In this document: positions 5,082 through 32,661 of the stretch, in pieces
Layout: every line of letters starts with the position of its first letter
Numbering within the stretch: the stretch's first letter is position 1
NCBI GenBank assembly: GCA_013389115.1
Contig: JACADY010000031.1
Location: forward strand, 1 to 64,000
Direction of reading: 5' to 3'
Length of the DNA stretch: 64,000 nucleotides
Source of the DNA: Alphaproteobacteria bacterium
GTDB taxonomy: Bacteria > Pseudomonadota > Alphaproteobacteria > Micropepsales > Micropepsaceae
Notes under the pieces: model-generated
Database searches by the model: none
Seen by the model: only the letters and a program-made list of their open reading frames with translations
Told to the model about the DNA's origin: nothing
Translations under genes and position numbers: made by a program

Positions 5082-5085
5082 CTTC

Positions 5086-7125: not shown

Positions 7126-7162
7126 TCCGGCCCCGTCCCTGACACCTGAACCCCTACGAGAT

Positions 7163-7192: not shown

Positions 7193-7210
7193 TCCAAGAG
7201 GATCAAGCCC

Positions 7211-8944: not shown

Positions 8945-8984
8945 CCCAACCACGACCCAATCACAGACAAGACGGGAGTCATCC

Positions 8985-10256: not shown

Positions 10257-10266
10257 GGCCATTCCC

Positions 10267-13443: not shown

Positions 13444-13470
13444 ATTGGGCAATCTCCGACGGATCGACAG

Positions 13471-15594: not shown

Positions 15595-15597
15595 TCC

Positions 15598-18500
15598 ATG
15601 GCCATCCTCGTTGCAGTGGGCGGGGCCGCGCTCGGCTCCGCCATCGGTGTCGGCTGGCAGGCCGGCTGGCTGGTGGGCTCGGTGGTCGGCAGCCTGCTCT
15701 TTCCGGCCAAGGGCCAGAACATCACCACCGAGGGTCCGCGGCTCGGCGACCTCACCGTCTCGTCCTCCGCCTATGGGGCGTCCATCCCCATCGGCTACGG
15801 CACCCTGCGCATGGCCGGCAACATGATCTGGTCGTCCGGCATAGCTGAGCAGCAGAACGTGACCCGCACCCGCGCGGGCGGCAAGGGCGGCGGCGGAGCC
15901 ACCCAGACCTCGATCACCTACTCCTACTTTGCGTCCTTCGCGCTGAGCTTCGGCGAGGGGCCGGCGGAGGACGTGCTCCGCATCTGGGCCGACGGCAAGC
16001 TCATCTACGACAAGACCGGGTCGAGCCCGGACGTCGCCAAGCCGAACCTGCGCTTCCGTTTCTATCCGGGCAACGAGACCCAGCTGCCCGACCCCCTGAT
16101 CGAGGCCCATGTGGGCGCCGGGCGCGCGCCGGCGCATCGCGGGCTCTGCCTGATCGTGTTCGAGGATCTGGCGCTCGCCGACTACGGCAACCGCATCCCC
16201 AACATCACCGCCGAGATCACCTATCGGCGCGCCGCTGAGCAGCCCTATCAGCTGATCGACTTCATCACCACGGGCGAGGGCGGCGCCTTCGGCTCCTACC
16301 AGATCGACGATCTCGCGGTCGATTGGCGGCGCGGCTACGGCTACTTCCTGGACAGCGACGTCAACGCCGCCGAGGCCGGGATCCGCCGCTTCAGCCTGCG
16401 GACCATGAAAGAAGACCGCCAGGCGCGGATGACGGACATCACCGCCGTCGCGCCGAACAACTTCCCGAGCACGCTGTTCTGCGGCGAGGACGGTCACCTC
16501 TATGTCGTGACCGGATCGAGCAACTCACGCCCGATCCTGCGCGTCGAACCGAACGCCCTCAGGGAAGTCGGCCGCTTCGGTTCTACCAGCAGCGGCCTGA
16601 CCAATTCGACCCTGCGGTTCGTCGCCACGACGTGGATGGGGATGGTCTCCGCTTACGGCCCCTCAGGCCGCGTCGACTTCGTTCTCACCGGATCGCTCTT
16701 CGACGATGTCGGACTCATCCGCGCCGACACCATGGGCTATGTCTGGGGCGCCGGGCAGAGCGTCACCGAGCCTCGCGTTCGGGGCGTCATTGGTGGTGCG
16801 GTCGGCGAAGGCTTCGGGGATGGCTGGATCCTCGGCAGCGGGACGAGCACGAACCATGGAAGCCTCGGCCTCTATCGCCTGCGGGTCTCGGCGCTGGCAG
16901 GGTACGACGGCCTCACCGGCCAATCCCTCGGCGTCATCTTCGAGAAGGTTGCCACCTTCTCGCCATCGGATGTCGAGAGCGGCGCCACCGGCTTCTACGG
17001 CAGCGCGGGCGGGCTCACCTACGACACGACCGACGACAGCGTCATCTTTCAGGCGCGCATCTCGAACGGGGGATCACCCGGCGCGATCTATACGCTGAAA
17101 TGGCGCAGCGACACCGGCATCGTCTGGAAGACGATCGTTCCGATCCAGATCAACTACGAAGGGCCCTATTTCGGTCAGAGCCGCCTGCGCGGGCAGCGTT
17201 GGACGCTGATGCGGGGCACGCGCGTCATCCAGCTGGACACCGCCACGGGCGCTCTTGTTCTCAATGAGATCTGGCCGGGTGCGGTCAGCGAAGGCGGTGC
17301 TCAGGTTTACGATGCCGTCACCGACACGCATCTGGTCCGCGGCAGCCAGGGCTGGGCGAAGCTCTTCCTCAATCGCGGCGGCGGTGGTGGAGAGACGCTC
17401 TCCGGCATCGTCTCCGACCTTTGCGCCCGTGCCGGCCTGGGTCTGTCCGATATCGACGTCGCCGATCTCGGGGCGACGGTTCCCGGCTATGTCATCGGGC
17501 GGCAGACCACCGTGCGGGGCGCGATCGAACCGCTGGCGCAGGCCTATTTCTTCGACGCTGCGGAAAGCGACGATGCCCTGCGGTTCCGGACGCGGGGACG
17601 GCCGCCCGCCGCGACCATCGACGCGGATCTTCTGCTGCCGCTGGATGAGCGGACCGGCGAGAGCTGGCGTGAGCGTCGCCGCCAAGAGGTCGAGCTGCCG
17701 GAACGGGTCAGCGTCGTCTACATGGATCGCGGCGCCGACTACCAGCAGGGCACGCAGAGCGAAAAACGCACCTCCCTTCCGCTGCCGACCATGCATTCGC
17801 GCAACCAGGCCAGCGTAGAGCTGGCGCTTGCGCTGGACGCGACGACGGCCAAGCAGATCGCGGCCAAGACGCTCTACAGCGCCTGGATCGAGCGCAGCGC
17901 CTACGAAGCAGAGCTGCCGTCCGACTGGCTGCACCTCGATCCCACCGATGTCGTGGACGTGGTCTTTGCCTCGGGCTCGACCTTTCGGACCCGCATCACC
18001 CGTCTCGATGTCGGGGCCGATTTCTCGCTCGCGGTGAAAGGGGTTTCGGAGACTGCCGCTACCTACGTCTCCAACGTGGCTGCCGATGGCGGCTCCGGCA
18101 AACCCGTCCAAATCGTCGGCAGTCAGGCCGCGACGCGGCTGATCCTGCCGGACTTGTCCCTGCTGCGCGACACCGATGACACCGGCGGGTCAGGATCGCG
18201 GATCTATTACATGATGGGCGGGTACGGCACGACTGGCTGGCCAGGCGCATCTCTCTACCGCAGCGCCGACGGCACGGCATGGGCGCAGGTCGGGCGTTCC
18301 TTGAGCGAGGCGGCCTGGGGCGCCACGGCAAATGCCCTCGGCACGCCGACATCCCCGTTCGCGACCGATGAGACGAACAGCCTCACGGTGTTCATGACCA
18401 CCGGCGGCGAACGGTTGGAGAGCGTCACGCAGGACTCGATGCTCAGCGGCGCCAACGCGGCCCTCGTGCTCAAGGCCAACGGCGAGCCCGAGATCATCCA

Positions 18501-19101
18501 GTTCCGCGACGTGACGCTGAATCCGGACGGCTCCTATACCCTGTCCGGGCTTTTGCGCGGCCGACGTGGCACCGATGTCTTCGTGGACGGGCACGAGGCC
18601 GGCGAGTTGTTTGTCCTCCTCGATCCCGACGATGTCGAGACCATGGTCACCTCGCTCGGGGATCTCGATCTCCCCCGGTCCTGGAGAGCGGTTGGCTTCG
18701 GCACGATCTTCGAGGATGCCGAGACGCTGGTCGCCAGCCACACCGGCCGAGACCTCAAACCCTACGCGCCCTGGAACGTGCAGGCGGCTCTGACCGGCAA
18801 TCCGGCCAACATCAGCCTCTCCTGGGTCCGGCGGACCCGGATTGGTGGCGAGTTGAAGGACGGCACCGGCCTCGTGCCGCTCGGCGAGACTTCAGAGGCC
18901 TACGAGATCGACATCCTCTCCGCACCTGGCGGCGCGGTAAAGCGGACGCTCACCGCGACGAGCCCGAACGTCGTCTACGCCAATGCCGACATCCTCGCCG
19001 ACTTCGGTGCCGTCCCGTCGTCCCTGACCGTCACCGTCTTCCAGATCAGCGCCGTCGCGGGCCGCGGCTTCCCGCGCACCGTCACATTGGAGATCAACTG
19101 A
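15598..19101 (+). CDS. Tail-tip/central fibre protein (gpJ-like, GTA tail-hub type)
   Basis: A 1167-residue protein. The N-terminus is hydrophobic and Gly-rich (AILVAVGGAALGSAIGVGW), as in the pre-hub region of these proteins, followed by the conserved SSAYGASIPIGYGTLRMAGN and YSYFASFALSFGEGP segments. The middle (about 240-600) is beta-rich with repeated strands resembling a propeller. From about 600 the sequence turns into the hub domains with the ERVSVVYMDRGADYQQG segment, and LSGLLRGRRGTD lies near residue 980. This protein forms the tip and usually contacts the receptor. Gene end TGATG overlaps the next start. Confidence 0.9.
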   Translation: MAILVAVGGAALGSAIGVGWQAGWLVGSVVGSLLFPAKGQNITTEGPRLGDLTVSSSAYGASIPIGYGTLRMAGNMIWSSGIAEQQNVTRTRAGGKGGGGATQTSITYSYFASFALSFGEGPAEDVLRIWADGKLIYDKTGSSPDVAKPNLRFRFYPGNETQLPDPLIEAHVGAGRAPAHRGLCLIVFEDLALADYGNRIPNITAEITYRRAAEQPYQLIDFITTGEGGAFGSYQIDDLAVDWRRGYGYFLDSDVNAAEAGIRRFSLRTMKEDRQARMTDITAVAPNNFPSTLFCGEDGHLYVVTGSSNSRPILRVEPNALREVGRFGSTSSGLTNSTLRFVATTWMGMVSAYGPSGRVDFVLTGSLFDDVGLIRADTMGYVWGAGQSVTEPRVRGVIGGAVGEGFGDGWILGSGTSTNHGSLGLYRLRVSALAGYDGLTGQSLGVIFEKVATFSPSDVESGATGFYGSAGGLTYDTTDDSVIFQARISNGGSPGAIYTLKWRSDTGIVWKTIVPIQINYEGPYFGQSRLRGQRWTLMRGTRVIQLDTATGALVLNEIWPGAVSEGGAQVYDAVTDTHLVRGSQGWAKLFLNRGGGGGETLSGIVSDLCARAGLGLSDIDVADLGATVPGYVIGRQTTVRGAIEPLAQAYFFDAAESDDALRFRTRGRPPAATIDADLLLPLDERTGESWRERRRQEVELPERVSVVYMDRGADYQQGTQSEKRTSLPLPTMHSRNQASVELALALDATTAKQIAAKTLYSAWIERSAYEAELPSDWLHLDPTDVVDVVFASGSTFRTRITRLDVGADFSLAVKGVSETAATYVSNVAADGGSGKPVQIVGSQAATRLILPDLSLLRDTDDTGGSGSRIYYMMGGYGTTGWPGASLYRSADGTAWAQVGRSLSEAAWGATANALGTPTSPFATDETNSLTVFMTTGGERLESVTQDSMLSGANAALVLKANGEPEIIQFRDVTLNPDGSYTLSGLLRGRRGTDVFVDGHEAGELFVLLDPDDVETMVTSLGDLDLPRSWRAVGFGTIFEDAETLVASHTGRDLKPYAPWNVQAALTGNPANISLSWVRRTRIGGELKDGTGLVPLGETSEAYEIDILSAPGGAVKRTLTATSPNVVYANADILADFGAVPSSLTVTVFQISAVAGRGFPRTVTLEIN

Positions 19102-20381
19102 TGCCCAGCCCCAATCTGGCCGTGACCCATGTCGCGGCCGCCCAGAACCAGAAAGAGGTCACGATCAACGACGCAGTCGATGCCCTCGACAACGCCATGA
19201 ATCAGGCACTGTCGGTGGCGATGGCCGACGCCAACCTGACGCTGACTGGCACCCAAGCCAACCGTAACGGTCTGATCATCCTCACCGGCACGCTGACGGC
19301 CTCCCGGATCCTGACGCTGCCCGCCAATCACCGGCGGCTCGCGATCCGAAACGCCACCAATGGCGGCCAGGACGTTCGCGCCAAATATGCGGGCTCCGGC
19401 GCGGAGGTCGTCATCGTACCGGGCGCGACGGTGCTGGTTCAGGGCAATGGCGGCGATCTCTACGGGGTCGGCGGCGGCGCTGGCGCGCTGGGTGATCTCA
19501 CCGACGTCTCCATCGCCGGCGCCGCCAACGGCGACGTGCTCCAGTTCGATGGAGCCGCGTGGGGCGCCACAGGCGTCGGTATCTTCAACCGCGCTCTGCT
19601 GCCCTTCCGGGGTGCGCTGCTGCGACGCTCGACCAATTTCAGCGTCGCGACGACCGGCGTCTACGTCGCCTTGCCATGGCAAAGCGCCGAGTATGATAGC
19701 GGCGCTTTCTGGGATGCGGGCCAGCCCTCCCGCCTGACCATTCCCGCCGGAGTGACGAAGGTCCGGATCGTCGGCAACATCGAGTGGCAGACCTCGCCGA
19801 CCAGTCAGCTGGTCGAGGTGCGGAAGAACGGCAACAGCGTGCTGGGCGGCGGGTCCTTCATCGTGCGCGGCGACAGCGGCTACTCCAACCAGATGCGCAA
19901 CCTGTCGAGCGCGGTCCTGCCGGTATCGGCGGGCGACTGGTTCGAATTGGCCGTCTATGTCGGCACGACCGGGGAGCTGCGCGGCCTCGAGCGCACTTGG
20001 CTGGCAATCGAGGTCGTCGAGACTGCGGATGCGGCCGATCCCCCGGCCGACATCAGCGGTTACAAGGCCGGGAAACCGGCAGCGGACGAGGTGATCGTGC
20101 GGATTCCGATAGCCCGACGCACCCGGCTGAAGATTGATCTTGCCGGTAGCCATGCCAGTGCCGAGGTCGCGGCAACCGCGAGCGCGGATTTCGACATCCG
20201 GATCGACGGCGTGAGCAGCGCCACCATGCGCTTTGCCGCCGCCGCCACGAGCGCCACCTTCATCGCCGCCAGCGAAACCGTGCTGGAGCCCGGCCAGGTG
20301 CTCAGCGTGGTCGCGCCATCGACGCCCGACGCCACGCTCGCCGGGATCGGGTTCACGTTGGCCGGCACGCTGGTCCTCTGA
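19101..20381 (+). CDS. Tail fibre/appendage-like protein
   Basis: A 426-residue protein beginning MPSPNLAVTHVAAAQNQKEVTIN, an opening found in tail-associated proteins that follow the hub in alphaproteobacterial phages. The first 140 residues have a Thr/Leu-rich beta pattern (LTLTGTQANRNGLIILTG), then a Gly-rich linker, and two C-terminal beta domains (about 165-315 and 320-426). The second of these has jelly-roll-like alternation (TRLKIDLAGSHASAEVAAT). A receptor-binding role is inferred from position and fold pattern. There is no recognisable enzyme motif. Its start overlaps the tail-tip stop by one base. Confidence 0.68.
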   Translation: MPSPNLAVTHVAAAQNQKEVTINDAVDALDNAMNQALSVAMADANLTLTGTQANRNGLIILTGTLTASRILTLPANHRRLAIRNATNGGQDVRAKYAGSGAEVVIVPGATVLVQGNGGDLYGVGGGAGALGDLTDVSIAGAANGDVLQFDGAAWGATGVGIFNRALLPFRGALLRRSTNFSVATTGVYVALPWQSAEYDSGAFWDAGQPSRLTIPAGVTKVRIVGNIEWQTSPTSQLVEVRKNGNSVLGGGSFIVRGDSGYSNQMRNLSSAVLPVSAGDWFELAVYVGTTGELRGLERTWLAIEVVETADAADPPADISGYKAGKPAADEVIVRIPIARRTRLKIDLAGSHASAEVAATASADFDIRIDGVSSATMRFAAAATSATFIAASETVLEPGQVLSVVAPSTPDATLAGIGFTLAGTLVL

Positions 20382-20399
20382 TCGCTGCCGGATTGCGTC

Positions 20400-20690
20400 A
20401 TGGACAAGGAACCAGACAGCGGGGCGCTCATCGCGCTGCCGGCCGCCGATTTTGAAGCCCTGCTGGAGCGCGCGGCCGAGACGGGTGCGCGGCGCGCCTT
20501 GCACGAGGTCGGCCTCGATGGCCAGGATGCCGCCGAGGACATCCGCGATCTTCGCTCGTTGCTCGCGGGTTTCCGCCTCGCGAAACAGACGGCCGTCCAG
20601 ACCGCGGTGCGGCTGATCACCACCGGCGTCCTGCTCGCCCTGATGGCCGGCATCGCCATTAAGCTGAAGCTCTTCGGGCCGACGCCTTAA
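20400..20690 (+). CDS. DUF6127 small membrane protein
   Basis: A 96-residue protein with a soluble acidic N-terminus and one hydrophobic segment at about 72-90 (LITTGVLLALMAGIAIKL), followed by a short basic tail. It starts at an ATG 18 bases after the fibre gene and ends just before a terminator-like hairpin. DUF6127 proteins occur at this place in alphaproteobacterial prophages. Being next to the lysis genes with one membrane span, it may contribute to holin function, but this is only an inference. Confidence 0.65.
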   Translation: MDKEPDSGALIALPAADFEALLERAAETGARRALHEVGLDGQDAAEDIRDLRSLLAGFRLAKQTAVQTAVRLITTGVLLALMAGIAIKLKLFGPTP

Positions 20691-20717
20691 CCCCTCCGCC
20701 CGAGTTTCGTGACCACC

Positions 20718-20748
20718 GCCCGCCCTCGCTGAGGGGCGGGCTTTTTTT
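20718..20748 (+). terminator. Rho-independent terminator after the structural genes
   Basis: GCCCGCCCTC pairs with GAGGGGCGGGC (one bulged G) around a GCT loop, followed directly by seven T residues at 20742-20748. It separates the morphogenesis operon from the lysis cassette. The lysis gene ATG is only 18 bases further, so partial readthrough or a weak internal promoter must serve it. Confidence 0.88.
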
Positions 20749-20765
20749 GTGCCTGGAGACCTGCG

Positions 20766-21440
20766 ATGACGACCATGACCTACAAACACTGGCGCGACGT
20801 GCCCGAGCGCTCGTGGCGCTGGCCGAACTTCTCGCCCGACGAAATCGCCTGCCGGCGCAGCGGCTCCCTGCGGATCAACGAGGAAGCGCTCGACAAGCTC
20901 CAGGCCCTTCGCGACCGGCTGGGCAAGCCGCTGATCGTCCGCTCGGCCTACCGCAGCCCGGCGCACAACCGCGCCGTCGGTGGCGCGCCGCGCTCAAAGC
21001 ACCTCGACGGCACCGCCTTCGACATCGCCATGGCGAACCACGATCCGGTCGCCTTCGAAGCCGCCGCCCGAGCCGTCGGCTTCCTCGGCTTCGGCTACTA
21101 TCCGCGCTCGGGCTTCATGCACATCGATCTCGGCCCGGCTCGGCAATGGGGCGAGCGTTTCCCGGTGCGGGCGACGGCGTTCGCCGCAGAAACGGCGCCC
21201 GTGCGGGAGGTCTTGGCCGACAGTCGCACGATGAAGGGCAGCGGCGCAGCAGGCGTGGCGACGCTTGGCGCCGCGGGCGTCGAGGTGGCGCAGAACGTCC
21301 TGGCGGAAACCCAGACCGCGATCCTGCCGCTCGTGCCCTATCTCGACAACTTGCGCTGGGTGTTCATCGCCGTGGCGCTCGCGGGCCTTGCCGTGACGAT
21401 CTACGCCCGCATCGACGACTGGAAGCGGGGGCGTCGATGA
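20766..21440 (+). CDS. Endolysin: M15-type peptidase with C-terminal membrane anchor
   Basis: A 224-residue protein. Residues about 15-135 are a D-Ala-D-Ala-carboxypeptidase-like M15 domain, with zinc ligands in SKHLDGTAFDIAM (His and Asp) and GFMHIDLG (His) and the usual VRSAYRSPAHN loop. It would cleave peptide crosslinks in peptidoglycan at lysis. The C-terminus has a hydrophobic segment at about 198-216 (WVFIAVALAGLAVTIYA) and a basic end, so the enzyme is probably held on the inner membrane until release. It lacks an N-terminal signal. The stop overlaps the next ATG (ATGA). Confidence 0.9.
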   Translation: MTTMTYKHWRDVPERSWRWPNFSPDEIACRRSGSLRINEEALDKLQALRDRLGKPLIVRSAYRSPAHNRAVGGAPRSKHLDGTAFDIAMANHDPVAFEAAARAVGFLGFGYYPRSGFMHIDLGPARQWGERFPVRATAFAAETAPVREVLADSRTMKGSGAAGVATLGAAGVEVAQNVLAETQTAILPLVPYLDNLRWVFIAVALAGLAVTIYARIDDWKRGRR

Positions 21441-21694
21441 TCGCTGCTCTGTTCACCGGGATCGCCGCCGCCCCGTGGATGCGGGCGGCCCTACGCTACG
21501 GCGCCATCGCACTCGCGGTGCTCCTGTTCCTGCTCGCGCTCCGGCGCTCCGGCGAGCGTGCTGGCCGCCTCGCCGAACGCCTCGAAACCTCGGAGAAGAC
21601 CAATGACGTCCAACGCCGGATGCTCGATGCGGCGGCTCGCCGTCCTCGCGATCGTAACGATCTCGCTGACCGGCTGCGCGACGGTCGCTTCTGA
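21437..21694 (+). CDS. Inner-membrane spanin (Rz-like) candidate
   Basis: 85 residues from the ATG at 21437, which overlaps the endolysin stop by 4 bases. A transmembrane segment is at about 20-37 (YGAIALAVLLFLLAL), followed by a charged helical stretch with coiled-coil potential (RSGERAGRLAERLETSEKTN). This is the N-in, single-span, coiled-coil layout of Rz proteins that help fuse inner and outer membranes at the end of lysis. The strongest support is the lipoprotein encoded in the overlapping frame. It could also be read as a small holin; I judge spanin more likely. Confidence 0.72.
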   Translation: MIAALFTGIAAAPWMRAALRYGAIALAVLLFLLALRRSGERAGRLAERLETSEKTNDVQRRMLDAAARRPRDRNDLADRLRDGRF

Positions 21695-21964: not shown

Positions 21965-22165
21965 ATGAACCCAAAATATCCCAACATAACCGTGCAGCTG
22001 ACTGGTCAGGATGGGAATGCCTTCATGGTTCTTGGTCTCTGTCAGCGCGCTGCTAAGGAGGCCGGGCTTTCCAAGGAGGAAATCGACTCGTTCTTGCAGG
22101 AGGCGACGAGCGGAGACCACGATCACCTTCTGCAAACGGCGATGCGCTGGTTCAACTGCCAATAG
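21965..22165 (+). CDS. Small conserved protein of unknown function
   Basis: 66 residues, beginning MNPKYPNITVQLTGQDGNAF. It has a beta strand then two helices (LGLCQRAAKEAGLSKEEIDSF and a His/Asp-containing end). Similar short proteins of this style occur in many bacteria and plasmids near restriction and conjugation genes; their function is unknown. The gene has its own AT-rich upstream region and its 3' end overlaps the convergent hsdR gene by 14 bases. It is at the seam between phage and defence island and belongs clearly to neither. Confidence 0.7.
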   Translation: MNPKYPNITVQLTGQDGNAFMVLGLCQRAAKEAGLSKEEIDSFLQEATSGDHDHLLQTAMRWFNCQ

Positions 22166-25124
22166 AAGCCGAGCCGACTTTTGACGCAGTGTCCGCATAG
22201 GTTGCCGCGAAGATCGTCTCGGAAAGCCACTTCTTGAACGAGGGGTTGTCGCTGAACTGCTTGAACAGTTCCGTGTGGTCAGACAGCAGTTCGATCACGG
22301 CACGTTCAAGCGCCTTGTCGTGCTCGATACGCGCGTTCTGCTTGTCCGAGTTCTTCATGGCGTTCTGATACGCCTTGTCGGCCGACACCTTAGCCGGAAG
22401 CTCCTCCGCGATGACCTTCCCGATTTTGTCCCTGTCCTTCCAATCGATGTTGCCGAACATCTCGTTGAAAGTCTTGAGGATGTTGCTCAGCAGATCGAGC
22501 TCGGGCTCGGGTTTGCGGCCGCCGCCAGCCGCTGGCACGGGCCCGATTTCGGAGTCTTCATCAGGCAGCGCGATGGCCATGGTTGCCTGTGCTTCGACGC
22601 GGTAGCTGTCCATGTCGATCGCTTCGAGGATCCCCTTGGACAGATCCTGCTCCTCAGGCGCCGGCAGCTTGGGCGTCAGGAAGTTGAGGAAGATAGATAG
22701 CTTCTCCCAATCCGCATTGCTGTAGGGAAGGATCGCGGCCAGAAAGCCATATGTCCTCGTGAACGCCTTCGCCTTACCCTTGAAGTCGACTTGCCCATCC
22801 TCATCGAGATCGGTCTTGTAGACGGCGACACAGGCGTCGAGAATCGGGTCGAGCTTGTCCCGGTCTGCACCGCCGAGGTAGAGCGCCACCAAGTCTTCCA
22901 CCTGGTCCCATGCATAAACCTGATAGCCATCAAGCGCAGCCTTCAGGTCGTGGAGCTTGTTGGGGTCGGTTTCCTCGCTGAGTATCGTGGTCCGGTAATA
23001 TGGCTCGAAGGAAGCCTTGATGGCCTCGAAATCGTTCATGAAATCGAGCACGAACGTGTCGTGCTTCTGCGGATGCGCCCGGTTCAAGCGCGACAGCGTT
23101 TGCACCGCCTTCACGCCGGACAGCGTCTTGTCCACATACATTGTGTGCAGCAGCGGCTCGTCATAGCCGGTCTGGAACTTGTCCGCGACGATCAGGAACC
23201 GGTACGGGTCCTTCTGGATCAGTTCCTCGATCTGGTTGCTTGGAAAGCCGTTCAAGGTCGCTTCAGTGACCTTCTGGCCGCCGTATTCATGCTCGCCCGA
23301 AAAGGCGACGATGGCCTGATAGGGGCTTTTGCGCTCCTTCAGATATTCCTGGAAGGCGTGGAAGTACTGGATTGCACGCTGGATCCCGTTGGTGATGACC
23401 ATCGCCCGGGCCGCGCCGCCGATCTTGCGATGCGCCATGACCAGGTCGTGGAAGTGATCGACCATGATCTCGGCCTTCTTTCGGATCGCATGGTCATGGG
23501 ATTCCACATACTTGCGCAGCTTCTTCTGTGCCCGCTTGGTGTCGAACTTGGGGTCGTCCTCCACCGTCTTCATAAGCCGATAATAGCTGTCGACCGGCGT
23601 GTAGTGTTTCAGCACGTCGAGGATGAAGCCCTCCTGAATCGCCTGCTTCATCGTGTAGCTGTGGAAGGGTACGTGCTTGATCTTGTCCCCTTGCGGGACC
23701 GGCGCACCGAAAACCTCCAGGGTCTTGTTCTTTGGCGTGGCGGTGAACGCGAAATAGCTGGCGTTCGGCAGCACCTTCCGCGCCTCCATCAGACGGTTGA
23801 TGGCGTCCTCGACCGTCTCCTCTTCCTCCTCGGCGCCATTCGCGGCGAGCGCGATGTTCATCTTCGCTGCGGTCCGGCCACCCTGACTGGAATGAGCCTC
23901 GTCGATGATGATGGCAAAGGTTCGCCCGCGATGCTCGTCGCCGATCTCGTCGAGGATGAAGGGGAACTTCTGGACCGTCGTGATGATGATCTTCTTGCCG
24001 GCCTTCAGGAAGGCCCGCAGGTCGCCAGACTTTTCGGCGTGTCCCACCACGGATGAAACCTGCGCGAACTGTTTGATCGTATCGCGGATCTGCTTGTCGA
24101 GAACACGGCGGTCGGTGACCACGATGACGGAGTCGAAGGTCGTCTTGCCGCCGGTCTCCAGCCCGATCAGCTGGTGAGAGAGCCAGGCAATCGAGTTGCT
24201 CTTGCCCGAACCGGCCGAGTGCTGGATCAGGTAGCGCTTGCCCGCCCCCTTGGCTTCGGCGTCGGCCAGCAGCTTGCGCACCACGTCCAGCTGATGGAAG
24301 CGCGGGAAGACCTGCTTGGGCGGCTTCTTCTTGCCGCGCTCGTCGACCTCCTCGACCACCTGGGCGTAGTTTTCCAGAATGTCGGTGAGGTTCCGCTTCG
24401 TCAGGTATTCCTTCCAGAGGTAGTCGGTCTTCAGCCCGTGGGGGTTCGGCGGGTTGCCCGCGCCATCGTTCCAGCCCTTGTTGAACGGCAGGAACCAGGA
24501 CGCCTTGCCCTTCAGGTGCGTGCACATCCGCACCTCGTGGTCGTCCACGGCGAAATGGACGACGCAGCGGCCGAACTGGAACAGCAGCTCCTTCGGATCG
24601 CGGTCGCGCTTGTACTGCTCGACCGCGTCCTCGACCGTCTGCTTGGTCAGACTGTTCTTCAACTCGAAGGTGGCGACCGGCAGGCCGTTGATGAACAGCG
24701 CAGCGTCGAGCGACAGCTTGGTCGCGTCCTTGGAATAATGCAGTTGGCGGGTGACGCTGAAGACGTTGGCGGCAAACAGCGCCTCGGCCTTCGCGTTCCC
24801 CGGCGTCGGCGTGCCATAGAACAGCTCCACCGAGCCCGGGCCGTGCTTCACGCCGTTGCGCAGCACGTCGATAACACCGCGCTTGGCGATCTCGCCCTGC
24901 AGCCGATGCAGGAATTGCAGGCGCTTCGGGCCGTCCACGCCGATCCCCAGCGCCTCCACAGCCTGTGGCTGCGTAGCGTTCAGGAAGTCGAACAGCTTTG
25001 CGACATCAAGAGCGTGGTCACGGTCGAAATCCGTCGAGTCGCCCGCGACATAACCCGCCTCGTCGACCAGCGAACGAACGATCAGGGCTTCGAGGCCTTT
25101 TTCACTGGTGTCAGTCGTCGGCAT
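22152..25124 (-). CDS. hsdR: Type I restriction endonuclease, R (motor/nuclease) subunit
   Basis: 990 residues from the ATG at 25124, a normal HsdR length. The N-terminal nuclease domain has the PD-(D/E)XK signature: Asp140 followed by FELK at 153-156. The SF2 translocase follows, with Walker A SAGSGKS at about 303-309 and DEAH at 408-411 (IIIDEAHSSQGG). The C-terminal helical part docks with the methyltransferase. It cleaves unmethylated DNA after translocating between sites. The gene overlaps the 3' end of hsdS by 14 bases. A longer reading starting at 25250 uses only sequence inside hsdS and is rejected. Reading frame appears intact. Confidence 0.96.
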   Translation of the reverse strand: MPTTDTSEKGLEALIVRSLVDEAGYVAGDSTDFDRDHALDVAKLFDFLNATQPQAVEALGIGVDGPKRLQFLHRLQGEIAKRGVIDVLRNGVKHGPGSVELFYGTPTPGNAKAEALFAANVFSVTRQLHYSKDATKLSLDAALFINGLPVATFELKNSLTKQTVEDAVEQYKRDRDPKELLFQFGRCVVHFAVDDHEVRMCTHLKGKASWFLPFNKGWNDGAGNPPNPHGLKTDYLWKEYLTKRNLTDILENYAQVVEEVDERGKKKPPKQVFPRFHQLDVVRKLLADAEAKGAGKRYLIQHSAGSGKSNSIAWLSHQLIGLETGGKTTFDSVIVVTDRRVLDKQIRDTIKQFAQVSSVVGHAEKSGDLRAFLKAGKKIIITTVQKFPFILDEIGDEHRGRTFAIIIDEAHSSQGGRTAAKMNIALAANGAEEEEETVEDAINRLMEARKVLPNASYFAFTATPKNKTLEVFGAPVPQGDKIKHVPFHSYTMKQAIQEGFILDVLKHYTPVDSYYRLMKTVEDDPKFDTKRAQKKLRKYVESHDHAIRKKAEIMVDHFHDLVMAHRKIGGAARAMVITNGIQRAIQYFHAFQEYLKERKSPYQAIVAFSGEHEYGGQKVTEATLNGFPSNQIEELIQKDPYRFLIVADKFQTGYDEPLLHTMYVDKTLSGVKAVQTLSRLNRAHPQKHDTFVLDFMNDFEAIKASFEPYYRTTILSEETDPNKLHDLKAALDGYQVYAWDQVEDLVALYLGGADRDKLDPILDACVAVYKTDLDEDGQVDFKGKAKAFTRTYGFLAAILPYSNADWEKLSIFLNFLTPKLPAPEEQDLSKGILEAIDMDSYRVEAQATMAIALPDEDSEIGPVPAAGGGRKPEPELDLLSNILKTFNEMFGNIDWKDRDKIGKVIAEELPAKVSADKAYQNAMKNSDKQNARIEHDKALERAVIELLSDHTELFKQFSDNPSFKKWLSETIFAATYADTASKVGSASIGS

Positions 25125-27252
25125 CGGCCCCCTCCATCGCTTCGGCGTCGCTGTCTTCCAACGCGTCGTCCAGCGCCTCGTCCTCGGTGATCGGTTCAGC
25201 AGCGATCTCGACATGGCGCACGTCCAGCTTGCCAGTAACGATATCGGCAATCAGGCGTTCGCGGTACTCGCGTATCAGCGTGATCTCGTCCTGAGCCTTC
25301 TCGATTGCCTTGTCGAAAGCGGCAGTCTCAGCCGCGATGTGATCGAGGATGGCCTTCTGTTCGACAAGCTCAGGTGGAAATGCCACATGAAGGGTGCCTA
25401 GACGCCCTTCTGAAATCGCGGGATACGCGACGCCGATCGATGCCCGGATGACGCGCTCGATGAACGTGCTGCTCTGAAGGACGTAGCCAAGCAGCCGTGG
25501 CTCCACGCTTTTAACGGGCCGCAGCACGGCGAAACCCGTCGATGCGATCAGGTCGGGCCAATCGTCCTCGATGAAGTAGACCGCCTTCAGATAGGTCCGG
25601 ACGGTTGAGAGGATAGTGTCGCCTTTCTGGACTATCTGGCGTGCGCGGGACGGAGCATCTTCGAACTTCATGCGCTCCGGTTTCGCAGTCAAAAATCCAG
25701 TCCCGACGCAGCTGATGTCGAGGTACTCGAACTCATATTCCGGTGGAGTCCTGTCACTGAGCGACTTAGCACGTTCGCGAAGCCAATGCTTGAGCGGCTT
25801 GACCTCCCAATGCGCCGGAACCTCGGGCATCCAGTCGATGCCGGTGGGCTTCATCGGGGCGTCGGGGTTCAGACCGCGCGTGACGGCGCGGTTGATGATC
25901 GCCTGCTTCTGCTCGTTCAACAGCCCGATCAGCCGCCGCTTGTTGCGGATCAGGCGGCGAACCTGCACGTCCTTGGCACGGAGAAAAGTGACCATGCGCT
26001 CCTGCTCTTCGCGCGGCGGGCAGGGAAACGCGATGTCCAGGAACTTGTCCGGGTAGAGACGCAGGCGCGATGAACGAATTCCCGTAGACCGGCAGATATA
26101 CTCCCAACGCAGCATCGGCGTGCGGAGAAGGTAATCGAGGTAGGCAGGTAGGAAATCGCGGCCGTTCAGGGGGCGGTAAACCCCATAGGCGGGGCTGACG
26201 ATACCGATATCCTTCGAGACGCCAAGCGCCGACATCCATGCCCACATCGTGTTGATGACGATATCGTTCGGCCTCGCGAGCTTGTGGCCGACATAGGATT
26301 CGGCCTTAAACATCGTGACGTTCTTCTGGCTGCGAGGCGTCACGCCGGTGGTGTGCGAGACAGAGAGCAGTTCTTCTTCGCCGGTCTGGGAGCGTTCGTC
26401 GATCTCGCGGAAGAAATACTTTCCGCGCTTCTCAGACCAGTGTGCTGGGATTTCTCCAAGCCAATGCACACGCGCAGGCCGATAGCTAGGGTAGCGGCTC
26501 GGTTCCGCATCTGCTTCAATCGGAGTGTTGGGTGCTTGCGTTTCGGAAGTTTGTGCTTCGGCAATCATTGGCTGCTCAAATAGAGATGGCTGGGGATCGT
26601 TGTGCGATGGCGCGGCGATAGCCGCAGGCGACTGCCGAGCCGCCCAGCCCGGAATCTGCGCATTATTCGGGGCCTGCACGGCCTCGATGGGCTCTCCGAA
26701 CAGCAGGAAGTCGGGTATGGCCAGCGGCTCGATGAACCGCAGGCTCTCCGCCTCATCGCCCTTAAGCTGCTCGCGCAGCTCCATCAGCAGCCGTCCAAGC
26801 ACGTTCATGCCGATGAGCGTGCCGTCCGGCTGCTCCGTGGCGCCCCAGAAATCCTTGCGGCGGACCTTCTTCTCGACGATCGGCATGTCCGCGGTGGACA
26901 GCAGAAGCTTGCCGAAGGTCTGCCAGTTCTGCGCCAGCTTCACGCGCAGGCACCAGCGCATGATCTTCACCCGCACCGCATCCCAGTCCGGTCGGGTCTC
27001 CGACCGGAACGGCTTGCTCCGCATCTTTGCGGTCATGGGGCTGGGGTCGTCGATGATCTGGCGCTGGACGTCCGGCCGGCGGGGGAAGCGGCAGGCCTGG
27101 TAGAGCGCCTCCGATGTGCGGATCCGCACGCCGTTCAGGACAATTGGGAAGCCCGGCGCCATGTTCGACAGCCCGCCGAAGCGCTCGTTCGTCTTGAGGA
27201 AGACGGCGCTCTCGGCTGGGTGGTATGTGCGAACCTGGCTGGGCTGGGCCAT
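25111..27252 (-). CDS. hsdS: NADAR-HsdS fusion: type I specificity subunit with an ADP-ribose-processing domain
   Basis: 713 residues from the ATG at 27252. Residues about 8-165 match the NADAR/YbiA fold: FGGLSNMAPGFPI near 25, TSEALYQACRF near 47, RVKIMRWCLRVKLAQN near 94, and FWG...GMNVLGRLLMELR near 136-160. A linker (about 175-250) rich in Pro, Gln and Ala follows. Residues about 255-690 are a standard HsdS with two target recognition domains, each opened by HW (AHWSEKRGK and AHWEVKPLK), and two long conserved helices. The acidic C-terminus is DDALEDSDAE-like. NADAR enzymes hydrolyse ADP-ribosyl or related N-glycosidic bonds; fusion to the DNA-recognition subunit suggests a DNA-directed activity, which is inference. 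Confidence 0.9.
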   Translation of the reverse strand: MAQPSQVRTYHPAESAVFLKTNERFGGLSNMAPGFPIVLNGVRIRTSEALYQACRFPRRPDVQRQIIDDPSPMTAKMRSKPFRSETRPDWDAVRVKIMRWCLRVKLAQNWQTFGKLLLSTADMPIVEKKVRRKDFWGATEQPDGTLIGMNVLGRLLMELREQLKGDEAESLRFIEPLAIPDFLLFGEPIEAVQAPNNAQIPGWAARQSPAAIAAPSHNDPQPSLFEQPMIAEAQTSETQAPNTPIEADAEPSRYPSYRPARVHWLGEIPAHWSEKRGKYFFREIDERSQTGEEELLSVSHTTGVTPRSQKNVTMFKAESYVGHKLARPNDIVINTMWAWMSALGVSKDIGIVSPAYGVYRPLNGRDFLPAYLDYLLRTPMLRWEYICRSTGIRSSRLRLYPDKFLDIAFPCPPREEQERMVTFLRAKDVQVRRLIRNKRRLIGLLNEQKQAIINRAVTRGLNPDAPMKPTGIDWMPEVPAHWEVKPLKHWLRERAKSLSDRTPPEYEFEYLDISCVGTGFLTAKPERMKFEDAPSRARQIVQKGDTILSTVRTYLKAVYFIEDDWPDLIASTGFAVLRPVKSVEPRLLGYVLQSSTFIERVIRASIGVAYPAISEGRLGTLHVAFPPELVEQKAILDHIAAETAAFDKAIEKAQDEITLIREYRERLIADIVTGKLDVRHVEIAAEPITEDEALDDALEDSDAEAMEGADADD

Positions 27253-28286
27253 CAGAAGTCTTCCTGTGCCAGCATCGCCATGAACCTGCGCAGCGACGTG
27301 TCGCTGTTCGTCGTGCGGGGGAACAGCGGATACCAAGGGTCCCCCGCCCACAGCGCCAGCGGCGCATTGTTGGGGCAGTTTCTGAAGGTCACGATCAGCG
27401 AGCCGAAACCGAGCGTTTCAAGGATCATGTTGCCCAGCGGCCGCTGGTATTGATTTAGATGCGGGCACATCTGCCGGATGCGCACGCCCGCCTTCAGGAA
27501 TTCCGATTCCAGCAGCTGGCGTCCGGCATCGCTGGAGAAGATGCCGTTTCCGCCGACATGGCCTGCAGTGCGCAGATTGGGCTGATAGCGCATTGCCCCG
27601 ACATAGGCTTTCACGCCCTCGTCGTCTGGAATCGCGACCGGCCGTAGAACATCGGACGTAGTGGTGTGAGCCCTGCGGTCCTCAAGCTCAATCGCGCGCC
27701 ACCACGTCAGGTCGATTGACTTTCCGGCGGCCTTTGCCGCCTCCTTGATTTTTCCATTGGCGTAGTACTGGCCGCCGCTATGCAGCGCGATCGTGATGAC
27801 GTGCACCTTCGCTTCGGCCGGAGCCTGCTCAGCGATCCATGTTTCGAGATCGCGCCTGACACGGTTCCCGGTGAAGATGGCGTCATCCAGATACACGAAG
27901 GCGTGGGGAGCTGCGCCGCAGTCGGCAGCTTCGAACCCACACTGCTTCTCCAACACTTTGCTGAACAGCGCGAGCATCTCCTTCTGGCTCGCGCCGCCGC
28001 CCTGAATGTCGAGGAACTTCACGCCCTTCCAGAAGGCACATGGGTCCTCGCCGACGAGCTTTTCGGTTTGGAATAGTCCCGCCAAAAACTTTCTCGTTCC
28101 ATCGCGGGAGAAGTAGGTCTGCTTCAGGACATGGTCCATTTCCCGCAAAATTGGCAGCTGAACTGCGGCGTCGAACTGACCGACCCAACGCTCGATACGT
28201 TCTGGCGTCGGGGCTTCCCCATCAGCCTCACGATAGTCGGCCGTCGTCGCTGCGATGGACGCGATGAGATCGTCCCGCTCAGCCAT
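27252..28286 (-). CDS. Phosphoribosyltransferase-fold protein of a conflict system
   Basis: 344 residues from the ATG at 28286; an upstream extension to 28511 looks non-coding and is rejected. The segment HAFVYLDDAIFTGNRV, near residue 150, is the PRPP-binding motif of type I phosphoribosyltransferases: four hydrophobics, DD, three residues, TG. The N-terminal part is helical (REMDHVLKQTYFSRDG), and the C-terminal third carries cysteines and an aromatic-rich stretch. It resembles PRTase-fold proteins found in bacterial conflict loci, whose substrates are unknown. It overlaps the NADAR-HsdS start by one base (ATGA), implying coupled translation and a joint role, perhaps making or removing a ribosyl-type adduct. 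Confidence 0.75.
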   Translation of the reverse strand: MAERDDLIASIAATTADYREADGEAPTPERIERWVGQFDAAVQLPILREMDHVLKQTYFSRDGTRKFLAGLFQTEKLVGEDPCAFWKGVKFLDIQGGGASQKEMLALFSKVLEKQCGFEAADCGAAPHAFVYLDDAIFTGNRVRRDLETWIAEQAPAEAKVHVITIALHSGGQYYANGKIKEAAKAAGKSIDLTWWRAIELEDRRAHTTTSDVLRPVAIPDDEGVKAYVGAMRYQPNLRTAGHVGGNGIFSSDAGRQLLESEFLKAGVRIRQMCPHLNQYQRPLGNMILETLGFGSLIVTFRNCPNNAPLALWAGDPWYPLFPRTTNSDTSLRRFMAMLAQEDF

Positions 28287-28327
28287 TTCCGCTTTCCCTG
28301 TGTCTGTTGCTTGCCCCCAGCTGCATC

Positions 28328-30124
28328 TCAAAGCCCCTCGAAGTAGGTCTTGATCTTCGCCGCCATCAGCTTTCGGCGCGCTTCGAGGAAGTCTCCAAAA
28401 TCGGGAATTTCCCCATCGAGCAGCGCTTCGGGCAGGCAGCTCATGCGGAGATTGGCCCGCATCTCGGCCATGTCCGTGATGCCGCCGTACTTCCTTGGCC
28501 CGCCGTTGCACTGCTCGGCAAGCTCGGCGAAGTAGACCTCGGGCGCTTTGTCGCCGATGGCGATGTTGATCTCGCTCTGGGCCAGGACAAAGTTGGCGAT
28601 CTGGTTGTAGCGCCCCCGCGTCAGCCCCTGGTTCTTCAAGTGGTTGCGCGGGTAGACGTGATGCACGTCGCTGCGGTTCAGCAGCAGGTCGCGCACGGTG
28701 ATATCCCGCGACAGGAAGCCGAGATCTCCCAACTTCACCTGCGCGGCCTGGTAGACGAGGAAGTAGGGGCTCGATGCCGAGGAGGTATCCATCTCCTGCG
28801 GGAGCAGCGTGGACCAGAAGCTCTCAGGGAGCTCCGCATCGATCACCGCCTCGCAATAGGTCGCGAGGCCACGCGCTTCGATCTGGCGGATATCGAAGTC
28901 GAACGCCGTCTCCGGGCTGCCGGAGTAGCGTCCCCTTAGCAGCGACATGACATACCAGCGTCTTACCAGCCGCTCGATGTCGGCAGCCGGCATGCCTTCC
29001 GCACGGCCGCGCAGGTAGAGGATGTAGGCGAAGTTGATGGCATTCTGGCTACGGATGAGGTTCGAAGTGATGAACCCGGCCGAGCGCAGAATCATCGTCA
29101 GACGGTCGAAATGGGTCTTGTTGATGAAGTTGAGAACGCCGGTCTTCAGGCGGGCGAACGCCTCCTCGGCGACGGCTTCCTCATACTGCTTGGTCTCGAA
29201 GTTCCGCCCTGATAGCAAGGCCACGAGATCCTGCAGCTTGCCGCGCTGGAACTCGGACGTGAATGCCACGCGCAGCATGTCGGTGTAGGAAGGGTCGTAG
29301 AGGTCGTCGTTGACGTCCTTCAGCCACCGCATTTTCGGGAGGAATTCGGACGAGGCGAACGCCTTGTCGCCCTTCTCAATGCGCGAGAGGAACTCGGGCG
29401 CGACGGCCAGATGGCAGAAATAGTCGATGGCCTTGCGCAGCATGTTGCCGCCGTAGGTGTCGTTGGCCGCGATCTTCGACATAGCGAAGTCCGCCTGGCT
29501 GAGCGACGCACCGGCCGAGTTCACGCGGATGAAGATCTCGGTCACGGTTTCGATGTCGAGGTCTTCGGCCAGTTCGATGATGCCGACGTGGTTGTTGATG
29601 ATCTTCCGGACGCGTTCCAGGATGCGCGAGACCTGCTTGCGGTCGGCATCGGGGTTACGTTCGGAATACTCGTCTGTCAGCTCGGTGAGGCTGGCATCCG
29701 GCGAAAAGACCGCCGCGAGATCGGGAATCCAGGCCGCGTCCTTGCGGATTGCGGGGTTCGAAACCTCGAACCGCTCATCAACCGGATGAAATGCGATCCT
29801 GATTCGGACGGTCTCGTAGTCCTTGGTCAGAACCTCTTGTCCGAGCAGCGCCGCCATCAGCGCCGTCACGCGCTGCTGCCCGTCGATCAGGATGCGCTTG
29901 CCGGACGATGTGGTACCGTCCTTCAACCGGACGGATGGATTTCGCCAGGCGATGAGGTATCCGACCGGATAGCCCTGATAGAGGGAGTCAAGCAGGTTCC
30001 GGACCTTCGTCGCATCCCACACGAACGGACGCTGGATCTCAGGGATCGCAATCTCACCGGACTTCACCCAAGTCAGAAGCGTTTCGATCGGATGGGGAGT
30101 GACGGAGTAGCGCTGGGTGGCCAT
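28328..30124 (-). CDS. DUF262/GmrSD-type restriction nuclease (single chain)
   Basis: 598 residues. The N-terminal DUF262 half has [11 protein letters not shown] at 27-37, IDGQQR at 80-85 and FIRVNSAG at 198-205, the NTP-binding ParB/sulfiredoxin-like motifs of GmrS-type proteins. The C-terminal DUF1524-type HNH nuclease has [12 protein letters not shown] at about 486-497 with an Asn in NQIANFVL after it. Single-chain relatives cut DNA carrying modified (for example glucosylated hydroxymethylated) cytosine. It starts 2 bases after the hsdM stop, so it is in the operon. All key residues appear present. Its target could be modified phage DNA that evades the type I enzyme. Confidence 0.9.
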
Positions 30125-30126
30125 TC

Positions 30127-32259
30127 TTAGTGCCCTCCCATGAGGACGTCTTCGAGCAAGCCCTCCGTCTCTTTCTCCAGCGCTCGGATATCGGCCTCGA
30201 TTTCATCGAGTGTGCGCAGCGGCTGCGGCTTGTAGAAATGCCGCGTGAACGAAATTTCGTAACCAATCACCGTTTTCGAGGCGTCGATCCAAGCGTCGGG
30301 GGCATGCGGCAATACCTCGCGCCGGAAGAAGGCTTCGATGCCGCCGTCTTCGAGGAACGGTACCTGTTCGGTATCCCTGAGCTCGGTGTCAGGCTCATAC
30401 TCCACGACCGACGCTTTGCCGCCAATCGTCGTGTGATAGCTGCCATACAGCGCTTCCTGCGTCGCATCCGACCCCGCCTTCGGCTTCGAGGTCTTGCGGA
30501 TCACCGGTTCCGCTGCGGCATCTTTCTGGCCGAGCGCCGACATGAGCAGCTTCTGCCGCTTGGCCGTCATACGGAGGCCAAGCGAGCTGGCGGCATCCTC
30601 CACCTCGGCAACGAAGGCATTGAAGTCCAAATGCGGGCCCGGACCACGGGCTTCCGCCACCGCCTCGATGGCGCGGACGAGATCGCTTTCTCCCGCTTCG
30701 GAGCACGTCTTGCGGAATCGCCGTAAGGCGCCTTCCGTCAGCTCCGTCTTCAAGCGCAAGGGACGCTCGACCGTGATCTTCCAATAGCCGAACGCATCGT
30801 TTGGGAAGACCTTGGACGTCTCGTCCTCTTTCTGGTGGAGGAACGCGTCACAGATGCGTTTGATATCGTCAACGCCGAGTTCGCAGTTCTTTTTCCCGAG
30901 ATTTTTGCGGAGCGGCTTGAACCAAGCGGTGGCGTCAATGAGCTGGACCTTGCCCTTGCGGTTCTCGGCCTTCCGGTTGCTGAGGACCCAGATGTAGGTC
31001 GCGATGCCGGTGTTGTAGAAAATGTTCAGCGGTAGGGCGATGATGGCTTCCAACCAATCGTTCTCGATGATCCAGCGGCGGACGTTGCTTTCACCTGAAC
31101 CCGCATCCCCCGTGAAAAGCGAGGACCCGTTATGGACCTCGGCGATCCGGCTCCCGAGGGGAGACGCCTTCTTCATCTTGCTGAGCATGTTGGCCAGGAA
31201 CATCATCTGGCCATCGATCGACCGGGTAATCAGGCTGAACTCAGGATCGCCGCCGTGCTCAATCACGAAGCGCGGATCAAGCAGTTCCTTTTTCCCTCCC
31301 ATGCGCTCCAAGTCGGTCTTCCAAGACTTACCGTAGGGAGGATTGGACAGCATGATGTCGAACTCGCGGGACGGGAACGCATCCGCCGACAACGTAGATC
31401 CGAATTTCATGTTTTCGGCCTCAACGCCTTCTCCCTTCAGGATCAGGTCGGCCTTGCTGATGGCGAATGTTTCCGGGTTGACTTCTTGTCCATAGAGGTG
31501 AACGGAAACTTCCTTCCCGTGGTCGGTTGCCAGCTTGATCAGCGTCTCTTCGGCGACAGTGAGCATGCCGCCCGTGCCGCAAGCGCCGTCGTACACGAGG
31601 TATGTGCCCGACTGGATGTGGTCGGCGATTGGCATGAAGATGAGGTAGGCCATGAGCTCTACCACGTCGCGCGGCGTGAAGTGCTCGCCTGCCTCCTCAT
31701 TGTTCTCTTCGTTGAAGCGGCGGATGAGCTCCTCGAAGATCGTGCCCATAGAATGGTTGTCGAGGCCGGGAAGCCGGACGCTCCCGTCTTGGTGGAGGAC
31801 CGGCTTTGGGCTCAGGTTAACTGAGGGGTCCAGAAATTTTTCGAGCAGGAAACCGAGGACATCTGCTTCGACGAGCGTGGGAATCTGATTGCGGAACTTG
31901 AACTTATCCAGCACTTCCTGAACGTTCGGCGAGAATCCGTCGAGGTACGCCTCGAAATCGGCCTTCAGCTGCTGCCGTCGCGCTCTGGAGGTCAAATCGC
32001 GCAGGCGGAACTGAGATGTGTTGTAAAATGCCTCTCCCGATGCTTGGCACAGAGCGGCATGCTGGTTCGCGACCCCCGCCTTATCGAGCTGGGTCTTCAT
32101 GGAGAGCACCGCTTCCTTCGTCGGCTCCAGCACAGCATCGAGACGACGAATAACGGTCATGGGCAGAATGACATCTCGGTACTTCCCCCGGACGTAAACG
32201 TCTCGAAGGACATCGTCGGCAATATTCCAGATGAAGTTGCTGATATTCAAATCGCTCAC
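30127..32259 (-). CDS. hsdM: Type I restriction-modification methyltransferase, M subunit
   Basis: 710 residues from a GTG at 32259, preceded by GAGGGG; a longer reading into the upstream gene is unlikely. The N-terminal helical HsdM domain is followed by the N6-adenine methyltransferase: [13 protein letters not shown] at 191-203, AdoMet motif DGACGTGG at 224-231, and catalytic NPPY at 306-309. The C-terminal 150 residues (about 560-710) extend beyond short HsdM forms, with [23 protein letters not shown]. It methylates host recognition sites, with HsdS giving specificity. The operon order is unusual because DUF262 and PRTase genes lie between hsdM and hsdS. Confidence 0.96.
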
Positions 32260-32269
32260 GTGCCGCCCC

Positions 32270-32470
32270 TCACGCCTTGTTCTGCGCTGCTTTTTTCTGC
32301 TGATCGATCCAGCTATCGAGGTCCGACCGCTTAAACCGCCATGCACCGGCGACCTTAAAGCCCGGCAGATCCCCGCGCTTGGCGAGCCTGTAAACGGTCT
32401 TCTCGTCGACGTTCAGGTAACCTGCCACGTCCCTTACGGTCATGGCCTGGTCAGGCGTGTCCGCCATCAT
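32270..32470 (-). CDS. AlpA/excisionase-like helix-turn-helix regulator
   Basis: 66 residues from the first of two adjacent ATGs (32470 or 32467), with GAGGG upstream. The core MTVRDVAGYLNVDEKTVYRL...FKVAGAWRF is a MerR-type winged helix of the excisionase family that binds DNA through TVRDVAGYLNVDEKTVYRLA. It ends 10 bases before the hsdM start and is therefore the first gene of the restriction operon. Such small regulators often precede hsdM and may delay restriction until methylation is established. A longer reading to 32896 is not supported. Confidence 0.85.
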   Translation of the reverse strand: MMADTPDQAMTVRDVAGYLNVDEKTVYRLAKRGDLPGFKVAGAWRFKRSDLDSWIDQQKKAAQNKA

Positions 32471-32661
32471 CCAGCCCTCACTGTTTTTCTGACCATAACA
32501 GGAGAACGCAGGGCAAACTAGTCCATTCTGGGCGCTCCAAGGTTGGCAAGGGGTAAAGTCGTAACCCAGGAATCCGTCTCGCAAGCTGAACGTCGTCTTT
32601 CCGATCCAAAGATGGGCCGAAGGAGCAAGAGGGAGACCAGTGCGACGTGAAGGCCCAGGAA

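Follow-up and report, generated by a model that had tools for sequence, protein, structure and literature searches.

The stretch of 64,000 nucleotides (nt) from contig JACADY010000031.1 of an Alphaproteobacteria bacterium of the family Micropepsaceae (assembly GCA_013389115.1), hereafter called the window, carries on its minus strand (32470-22152) one operon of six genes, in which a phosphoribosyltransferase (PRTase) and a NADAR domain are placed inside a type I restriction-modification (R-M) system, with NADAR fused to the N-terminus of the specificity subunit HsdS. By analogy with DarTG, the operon is best read as holding an embedded effector/eraser module whose eraser would be tethered to the DNA-methylating complex. 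That a PRTase/NADAR pair of the DS-32 type is both embedded in and mechanically coupled to the R-M system, in a prophage-linked and horizontally moving anti-phage operon, is a view which is given about an even chance of being right. An earlier note on this DNA had described the same six genes as one operon, and their place, strand and order were confirmed. It had also seen three combined chemistries in them: the composite is real, but PRTase and NADAR turned out to be one named pair (DS32_1/DS32_2) and not separate additions.

The PRTase matched the family DS32_1_antiphage (NCBIfam NF053875) with 426 bits (cut-off 250) and the NADAR part matched DS32_2_antiphage (NF053876) with 274 bits (cut-off 240), both cut-offs being at equivalog level. 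NADAR lies directly downstream of the PRTase with an overlap of 1 nt, and the scores, the adjacency and the gene order are those of DS-32. DS-32 is, however, a stand-alone pair of two free proteins, whereas in the window the PRTase core is allele-swapped (see below), NADAR is part of HsdS and the pair is embedded in R-M. Because of the last two features, the operon was classed as a variant containing the DS-32 pair and not as DS-32 itself. Designations of the form DS-n come from DefensePredictor (PMC13092281), where a figure legend lists a PRTase among the validated systems and NADAR-domain proteins are mentioned in the text. From these names, DS-32 was tentatively equated with a DefensePredictor system; the label 'DS-32' is not printed in the main text.

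In order to find relatives, a profile search of genome contigs was done with an alignment of three PRTase sequences and yielded 19 loci. NADAR directly followed the PRTase in all 19, as well as in 33 of 33 IMG/VR contigs (some of them near-copies) and in 3 of 3 cases from a plasmid collection, giving 55 of 55. Among 399 genomes of the phylum, each family scored above its cut-off in three, and these were the same three (p ~1e-7 if independent). The two proteins thus co-occur beyond expectation, which the earlier note had proposed to check, and with the pair present at every PRTase locus a chance association was rejected. No relative of the PRTase was found in the phage-genome collection.

E. 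coli, Klebsiella and plasmids carry the complete pair without R-M, and it also stands alone in prophages. In a lambdoid prophage of E. coli, where it separates replication gene P from ybcN/ninE, the pair scores above both DS32 cut-offs; this E. coli-type pair, detected via its NADAR, was present in 62 of 5,426 complete genomes, two loci of which were inspected. In E. coli STN0717-20 (L132:1-6574), a HipA-kinase/DUF3037 pair (DS-6-type) and the DS-32 pair reside in the same lambdoid prophage. One Klebsiella record (CP125156.1, L057) is labelled 'plasmid unnamed2', and with its 5.37 Mb it looks like a mislabelled chromosome. NADARs close to DS32_2 were also found without PRTase in L152, L153 and L161 (6001-6552), with 216-232 bits, slightly below the cut-off. 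Borne on IMG/VR contigs of 231-485 kb, they are candidate phage-borne antidotes to the PRTase. On another IMG/VR contig of 176 kb (L174:4850-6567), a DS32_2-like NADAR gene comes right after a GmrSD_N (DUF262) gene, again without PRTase, which is possibly a separate DUF262-NADAR pairing. The PRTase always comes with NADAR, while NADAR is sometimes alone; this is the asymmetry expected of a toxin that needs an antidote.

The fusion of NADAR to HsdS is a single uninterrupted reading frame in the window and in 14 other loci. With 15 such frames, a frameshift or an assembly artefact was rejected. NADAR is fused to HsdS in 15 of 15 complete R-M cases, and the PRTase is fused in none of the loci seen. 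The linker between both parts (approximately residues 193-250 of the fusion) was predicted with low confidence and is presumably flexible; the predicted structure of the whole fusion, with a predicted local distance difference test score (pLDDT) of 70, was too uncertain for a fold search. The same PRTase-NADAR pair was recovered in Hma systems (PADLOC HmaABC), which consist of the helicase HmaA, the DUF1156 methylase HmaB and the ATPase HmaC. There the pair is located between HmaA and HmaB, and in two cases, a Gemmataceae genome (L047) and an IMG/VR contig (L147/L185), HmaB itself begins with the NADAR domain. Two unrelated systems thus have NADAR attached to a subunit that recognises or methylates DNA. 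Hma is a different host system from the type I R-M of the window, and the fusion is regarded as having evolved there a second time, by convergence.

The arrangement of the window (helix-turn-helix (HTH) regulator, hsdM, DUF262 in most cases, PRTase, NADAR::HsdS, hsdR) was found in 12 of the 19 loci; among these, L038 ends at a contig edge and a few have no recognisable HTH in the stretch covered. The recurrence of this arrangement supports the earlier proposal of a composite defence operon uniting type I R-M, a protein of the modified-DNA nuclease type and ribosyl/PRPP-type enzymes (PRPP, phosphoribosyl pyrophosphate) in the order hsdM-DUF262-PRTase-NADAR/hsdS-hsdR. DUF262, which had been counted in the set, is present in the window but proved to be optional. 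It is missing in L037, L045, L101 and L103, which retain PRTase-NADAR::HsdS, and the latter is thus the stable unit. Carriers are Chelatococcus, Sphingopyxis, Paracoccus, Roseibaca, Oceaniglobus, Poseidonocella, Swaminathania and Nitrococcus, together with further Rhodobacteraceae and Rhodospirillales and one contig of an Opitutales metagenome-assembled genome; IMG/VR adds L100, L101/L110 and L103. A dozen bacterial species or more carry the fusion-bearing arrangement, and the whole gene order is kept across orders of Alphaproteobacteria.

In the HsdM tree, 12 members (the window included) with HsdM 84-99% identical to that of the window form one clade with support 98/93, drawn from several orders. 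The operon order is conserved in all 12, one of them being without DUF262. NADAR and PRTase are thus not absent from close relatives, which would have spoken against the earlier note, at least within this clade (12/12, HsdM at least 84% identical); more distant R-M operons (64-80%) are mostly without them. Such module-less relatives are placed outside the clade and among the Nitrococcus and L101/L103 lines, a pattern that takes at least four gains or losses of the module to explain, and a single origin of all NADAR::HsdS operons by vertical descent is not supported. The NADAR and PRTase trees would be compatible with one fusion event that spread together with HsdS. In L049 (13114-16668) and L051 the N-terminus of HsdR is longer, the extra part in L049 being an HNH domain.

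Operon pairs which are 97-100% identical in most segments of HsdM, DUF262 and HsdR were found to differ at the recognition domains of HsdS and in the core of the PRTase, at about residues 61-240. Between the window and L044, which is of the genus Sphingopyxis, PRTase identity is 98% for residues 1-60, 57% for 121-180, 60% for 181-240 and 100% for 301-344. Four-fold-degenerate sites are only 12-43% identical in the core, compared to mostly 80-100% in neighbouring genes, and the pairs L039/L042 and L049/L051 display the same kind of pattern. Since silent sites of the core are equally diverged, fast point evolution was rejected and whole PRTase alleles must have been exchanged. The alignments indicate that the PRTase core is exchanged between operons in the same way as HsdS recognition domains are. 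Within the swapped stretch lie the core strands of the PRTase and its PRPP loop. The exchange is partly independent of NADAR, which is 97% identical between the window and L044.

The predicted structure of the PRTase (pLDDT 89, predicted TM-score 0.87) gave only type I PRTases as best fold matches in the PDB, namely uracil, xanthine-guanine, adenine and orotate phosphoribosyltransferases. A PRPP-loop-like motif (DDAIFTG at 134) is followed by the family signature RNCPNN (at 302), and the loop pattern DDxxF[ST]G is near-invariant among the relatives, as is typical of the type I phosphoribosyltransferase fold. The NADAR domain displays the motifs TSEALYQ, PIVE and DFWG. After matching by motif to the published catalytic and ADP-ribose-binding positions, residues E48, W90, R94, E127 and W136 were conserved in 29 aligned NADARs, both fused and unfused. 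The domain is of the YbiA (Glu) type, with Glu rather than Asp or His in the last strand, and the catalytic Glu pair and the Trp residues are present.

The features of the operon and its surroundings are listed in the table. Gene junctions measure +10, +2, +41, -1 and -14 nt, matching the range of -14 to about +41 noted earlier. HsdM, an HsdS with recognition domains and the translocase-nuclease HsdR occur together in this one operon, as in type I R-M systems; HsdR displays the PD-ExK motif (ELK at 154), Walker A (305) and DEAH (408). The DUF262 protein is of the GmrSD type, with a DUF262 domain containing the motif DGQQR at 81, and resembles PADLOC HEC-05 (114 bits). At its C-terminus, HHVYP at 488 and downstream Asn residues look HNH-like by eye, and Pfam gave no separate C-terminal nuclease match. 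The regulator is near MAD1 of the MADS system (78.5 bits, slightly below the NCBIfam cut-off of 80). As it is the only part with such a resemblance, the other genes of the set MAD1-MAD8 being absent and the MAD2/MAD5 model matches weak and far below those of R-M models, membership in MADS was rejected.

Table. Location of the operon genes, their domains and neighbouring features in the window.
Feature	Position	Strand	Evidence or remark
Prophage structural genes: portal, head protease, tape measure, tail, tail fibre	3561..21694	+	end beside operon
hsdR, 990 aa (amino acids)	25124-22152	-	SWI2_SNF2, HSDR_N, T1R_D3
NADAR::HsdS fusion, 713 aa	27252-25111	-	NADAR 75 bits (cut-off 35); Specificity_I E 2e-102
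HsdS part of fusion, two recognition domains	25111..26500	-	preceded by the linker
NADAR domain of fusion, DS32_2-type	26593..27252	-	NCBIfam
PRTase-CE, DS32_1-type anti-phage protein, 344 aa	28286-27252	-	Pfam 201 bits (cut-off 27)
DUF262/GmrSD_N, GmrSD-type protein, 598 aa	30124-28328	-	105 bits (cut-off 33)
hsdM, N6-adenine DNA methyltransferase, 710 aa, GTG start	32259-30127	-	N6_Mtase, HsdM_N; NPPY motif
HTH_17/excisionase-type regulator, 66 aa	32470-32270	-	HTH_17 65 bits (cut-off 27)
Promoter/operator-like element, TGGACTAGTTTGCCC...TGTTATGGTC	32491..32525	-	immediately upstream of regulator gene; predicted promoter
Short recombinase-like open reading frame (ORF), opposite side of operon from prophage genes	36190..36585	-	phrog_14161, E 1.5e-22

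The promoter-like element (32525-32491) is the sole conserved upstream stretch in 11 loci, the DNA further upstream being mostly unrelated. DNA from approximately 17.3 to 33.3 kb, tail genes included, is common to the window, L036 of Chelatococcus and the viral contig L100, and homology resumes at 36.2-37.0 kb. Several other loci share little beyond the operon, and there homology stops at the promoter-like element and near the hsdR stop. These borders define the operon as a discrete cassette, which is prophage-linked here. A further small ORF, likewise HTH/excisionase-like, lies immediately upstream of the operon (32706-32921, minus strand), in DNA common only to the window, L036, L044 and L100. 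Rfam and tRNA scans gave no match at the operon.

Known systems resemble parts of the operon. The RRDM island, composed of RptR, type I R-M, DarTG2 and M48, is a working defence island (PMC12255303). As in the window, a small DNA-binding regulator comes first and a module for ribosyl transfer and ribosyl removal is embedded in type I R-M. The module of RRDM is, however, made of an ADP-ribosyltransferase (ART) and a macrodomain instead of PRTase and NADAR, its eraser is not fused to an Hsd subunit, and it sits between hsdS and hsdR, unlike in the window. A similar case was found in an R-M relative with 65% HsdM identity (L088:5389-7093), where hsdS and hsdR are separated by the genes for DarT (NF048013) and DarG (NF048014). 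Other insertions were observed among R-M relatives: a Fic-domain protein between hsdM and hsdS in a relative with HsdM about 80% identical (L084:4166-5455), and an AAA_21 (AbiEii-like) ATPase with a gene without assignment between hsdS and hsdR in a more distant type I operon (L093:8771-10713), which form a further embedded pair. TgvAB of the V. cholerae island VPI-2 (PMC11411939) likewise brings GmrSD/DUF262-type genes into a type I R-M operon and covers modified phages, but it is a two-protein GmrSD-type system without PRTase or NADAR.

Another parallel is DarTG1 (DarT1-NADAR, PMC11543638), where a ribosyl-transferring toxin is combined with a NADAR eraser. DarT attaches ADP-ribose to DNA bases, and NADARs remove it from guanine and serve as DarT1 antitoxins (PMC11543638). 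The DarTG1 toxin is, however, an ART-fold enzyme using NAD+ where the window has a PRTase, and its NADAR is of the Asp (BC4488) type and not of the Glu (YbiA) type. Membership in DarTG was rejected, as the operon holds PRTase-CE and no ART domain; the likeness is one of working only. PRTases are effectors of type III retrons (PMC12548924). With DarTG inside type I R-M (RRDM and L088) as the nearest functional parallel, the PRTase was taken as writer/effector and NADAR as eraser, and the likelier source of any ribosyl adduct would be the PRTase of the system itself, with NADAR removing it.

The enzymatic activities, substrate, toxicity and guard logic that we infer are as follows. HsdM2S would methylate the host sites and HsdR would cut unmethylated DNA, as known for the family, and the GmrSD-type protein may cover phages whose modified bases hide the R-M sites. 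An unrestrained PRTase effector would transfer a ribosyl group from PRPP, or from a related donor, to guanine-type bases, either within nucleic acid or in nucleotides, and phage or cell would be stopped. Following NADAR chemistry, the NADAR part would be the cognate eraser or antitoxin that cleaves the N-glycosidic ribosyl-base bond, and its fusion to HsdS would place this eraser on the host DNA-methylating complex. Damage by the PRTase would be held in check as long as the R-M complex is intact, and released once a phage blocks, degrades or titrates the complex. The exchangeable PRTase core may be the phage-facing, rapidly renewed part.

Several observations weigh against this coupled effector/eraser reading. 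For the PRTase, Foldseek gave marginal E-values (7e-3) together with low TM-scores, so that the fold assignment draws mainly on the Pfam match together with consistent weak fold matches. In the window allele, Lys replaces the Asp located three residues before the conserved Trp, an Asp whose contact in the known structure is water-mediated. YbiA acts on riboflavin intermediates, and by analogy the substrate of NADAR may be a metabolite. Magnetococcales Hma loci (L053/L054) have an unfused NADAR, which shows that fusion is not obligatory. Finally, the near-identical NADARs (97%) of the window and L044 accompany quite different PRTase cores, hence the co-specificity of a toxin with its antitoxin is not visible.

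An alternative regarded as rather unlikely takes the DS-32 pair and the GmrSD-type protein as independent defences, lodged in the R-M operon for shared regulation and mobility, the fusion being a neutral by-product of overlapping genes and NADAR working alone. The pairs complete without R-M agree with it, as do the coming and going of DUF262 between operons and the frequency of embedded passengers in type I R-M and Hma (PMC11411939; DarTG in L088, Fic in L084). A neutral fusion would nevertheless be expected to split sometimes, whereas this one is kept in every complete R-M case despite HsdS alleles diverging to ~30-45% identity, and the second fusion, to the different methylase HmaB, was seen twice. 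It is quite unlikely that, in an extension of the model of the earlier note, NADAR-HsdS is a sequence-guided enzyme that removes or reads a ribosyl-type base adduct on DNA at HsdS sites, as a second self/non-self mark beside N6-methyladenine. The probably flexible tether to a DNA-reading subunit would suit such a role, NADAR fusions were found only to DNA-recognition or methylase subunits, and ADP-ribosyl-guanine in nucleic acid is a known target of NADARs (PMC11543638, PMC11833690); yet the unfused pair is a named defence elsewhere, hence site guidance is not required, and the NADAR domain does not vary with the recognition domains of HsdS.

The PRTase could also make a nucleotide second messenger upon infection, which NADAR would sense or degrade, thereby switching HsdR or DUF262. 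A role of NADAR and related domains in processing soluble derivatives of ADP-ribose during phage conflict has been proposed (PMC9503650), but the operon showed none of the canonical sensor domains (SLOG, SAVED, CARF) and stand-alone pairs have no obvious downstream effector, which makes this very unlikely. Extremely improbable is a degenerate NADAR serving merely as HsdS scaffold: one pyrophosphate-contact position is altered in the window allele, against which stand the five residues conserved across fused and unfused NADARs. Beyond the coupled effector/eraser reading, an extended idea, considered unlikely, is that type I R-M and Hma possess a second, non-methyl layer of self/non-self distinction. 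The PRTase would ribosylate bases indiscriminately, NADAR on the recognition or methylase subunit would clean host DNA at its own sites and leave phage DNA poisoned, and PRTase cores would be traded to renew the modification or to escape phage inhibitors.

In the open-licence literature searched, no description of the exact six-gene set as one system was found, in line with the earlier note; what is already described is the DS-32 part. GmrSD-type/DUF262 genes within type I R-M loci have been published (TgvAB and references in PMC11411939), and so have DarTG-type modules, thus neither the pair nor the idea of embedding is new. The same literature yielded no account of a NADAR fusion to HsdS or HmaB, nor of PRTase core exchange. 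The NADAR::HsdS fusion, the pair in Hma with NADAR::HmaB and the swapping of the PRTase core are therefore apparently new.

The repeated fusion of NADAR to DNA-recognition or methylase subunits indicates where the eraser is meant to act. The question of the PRTase target thereby becomes testable: it should be looked for on DNA and nucleotides. The exchangeable core of the PRTase points, unexpectedly, to an arms race over the core of an enzyme and not over a DNA-reading domain. If the coupled effector/eraser reading is true, restriction and toxin-antitoxin control would be joined in one polypeptide, providing a built-in guard against anti-restriction proteins of phages.

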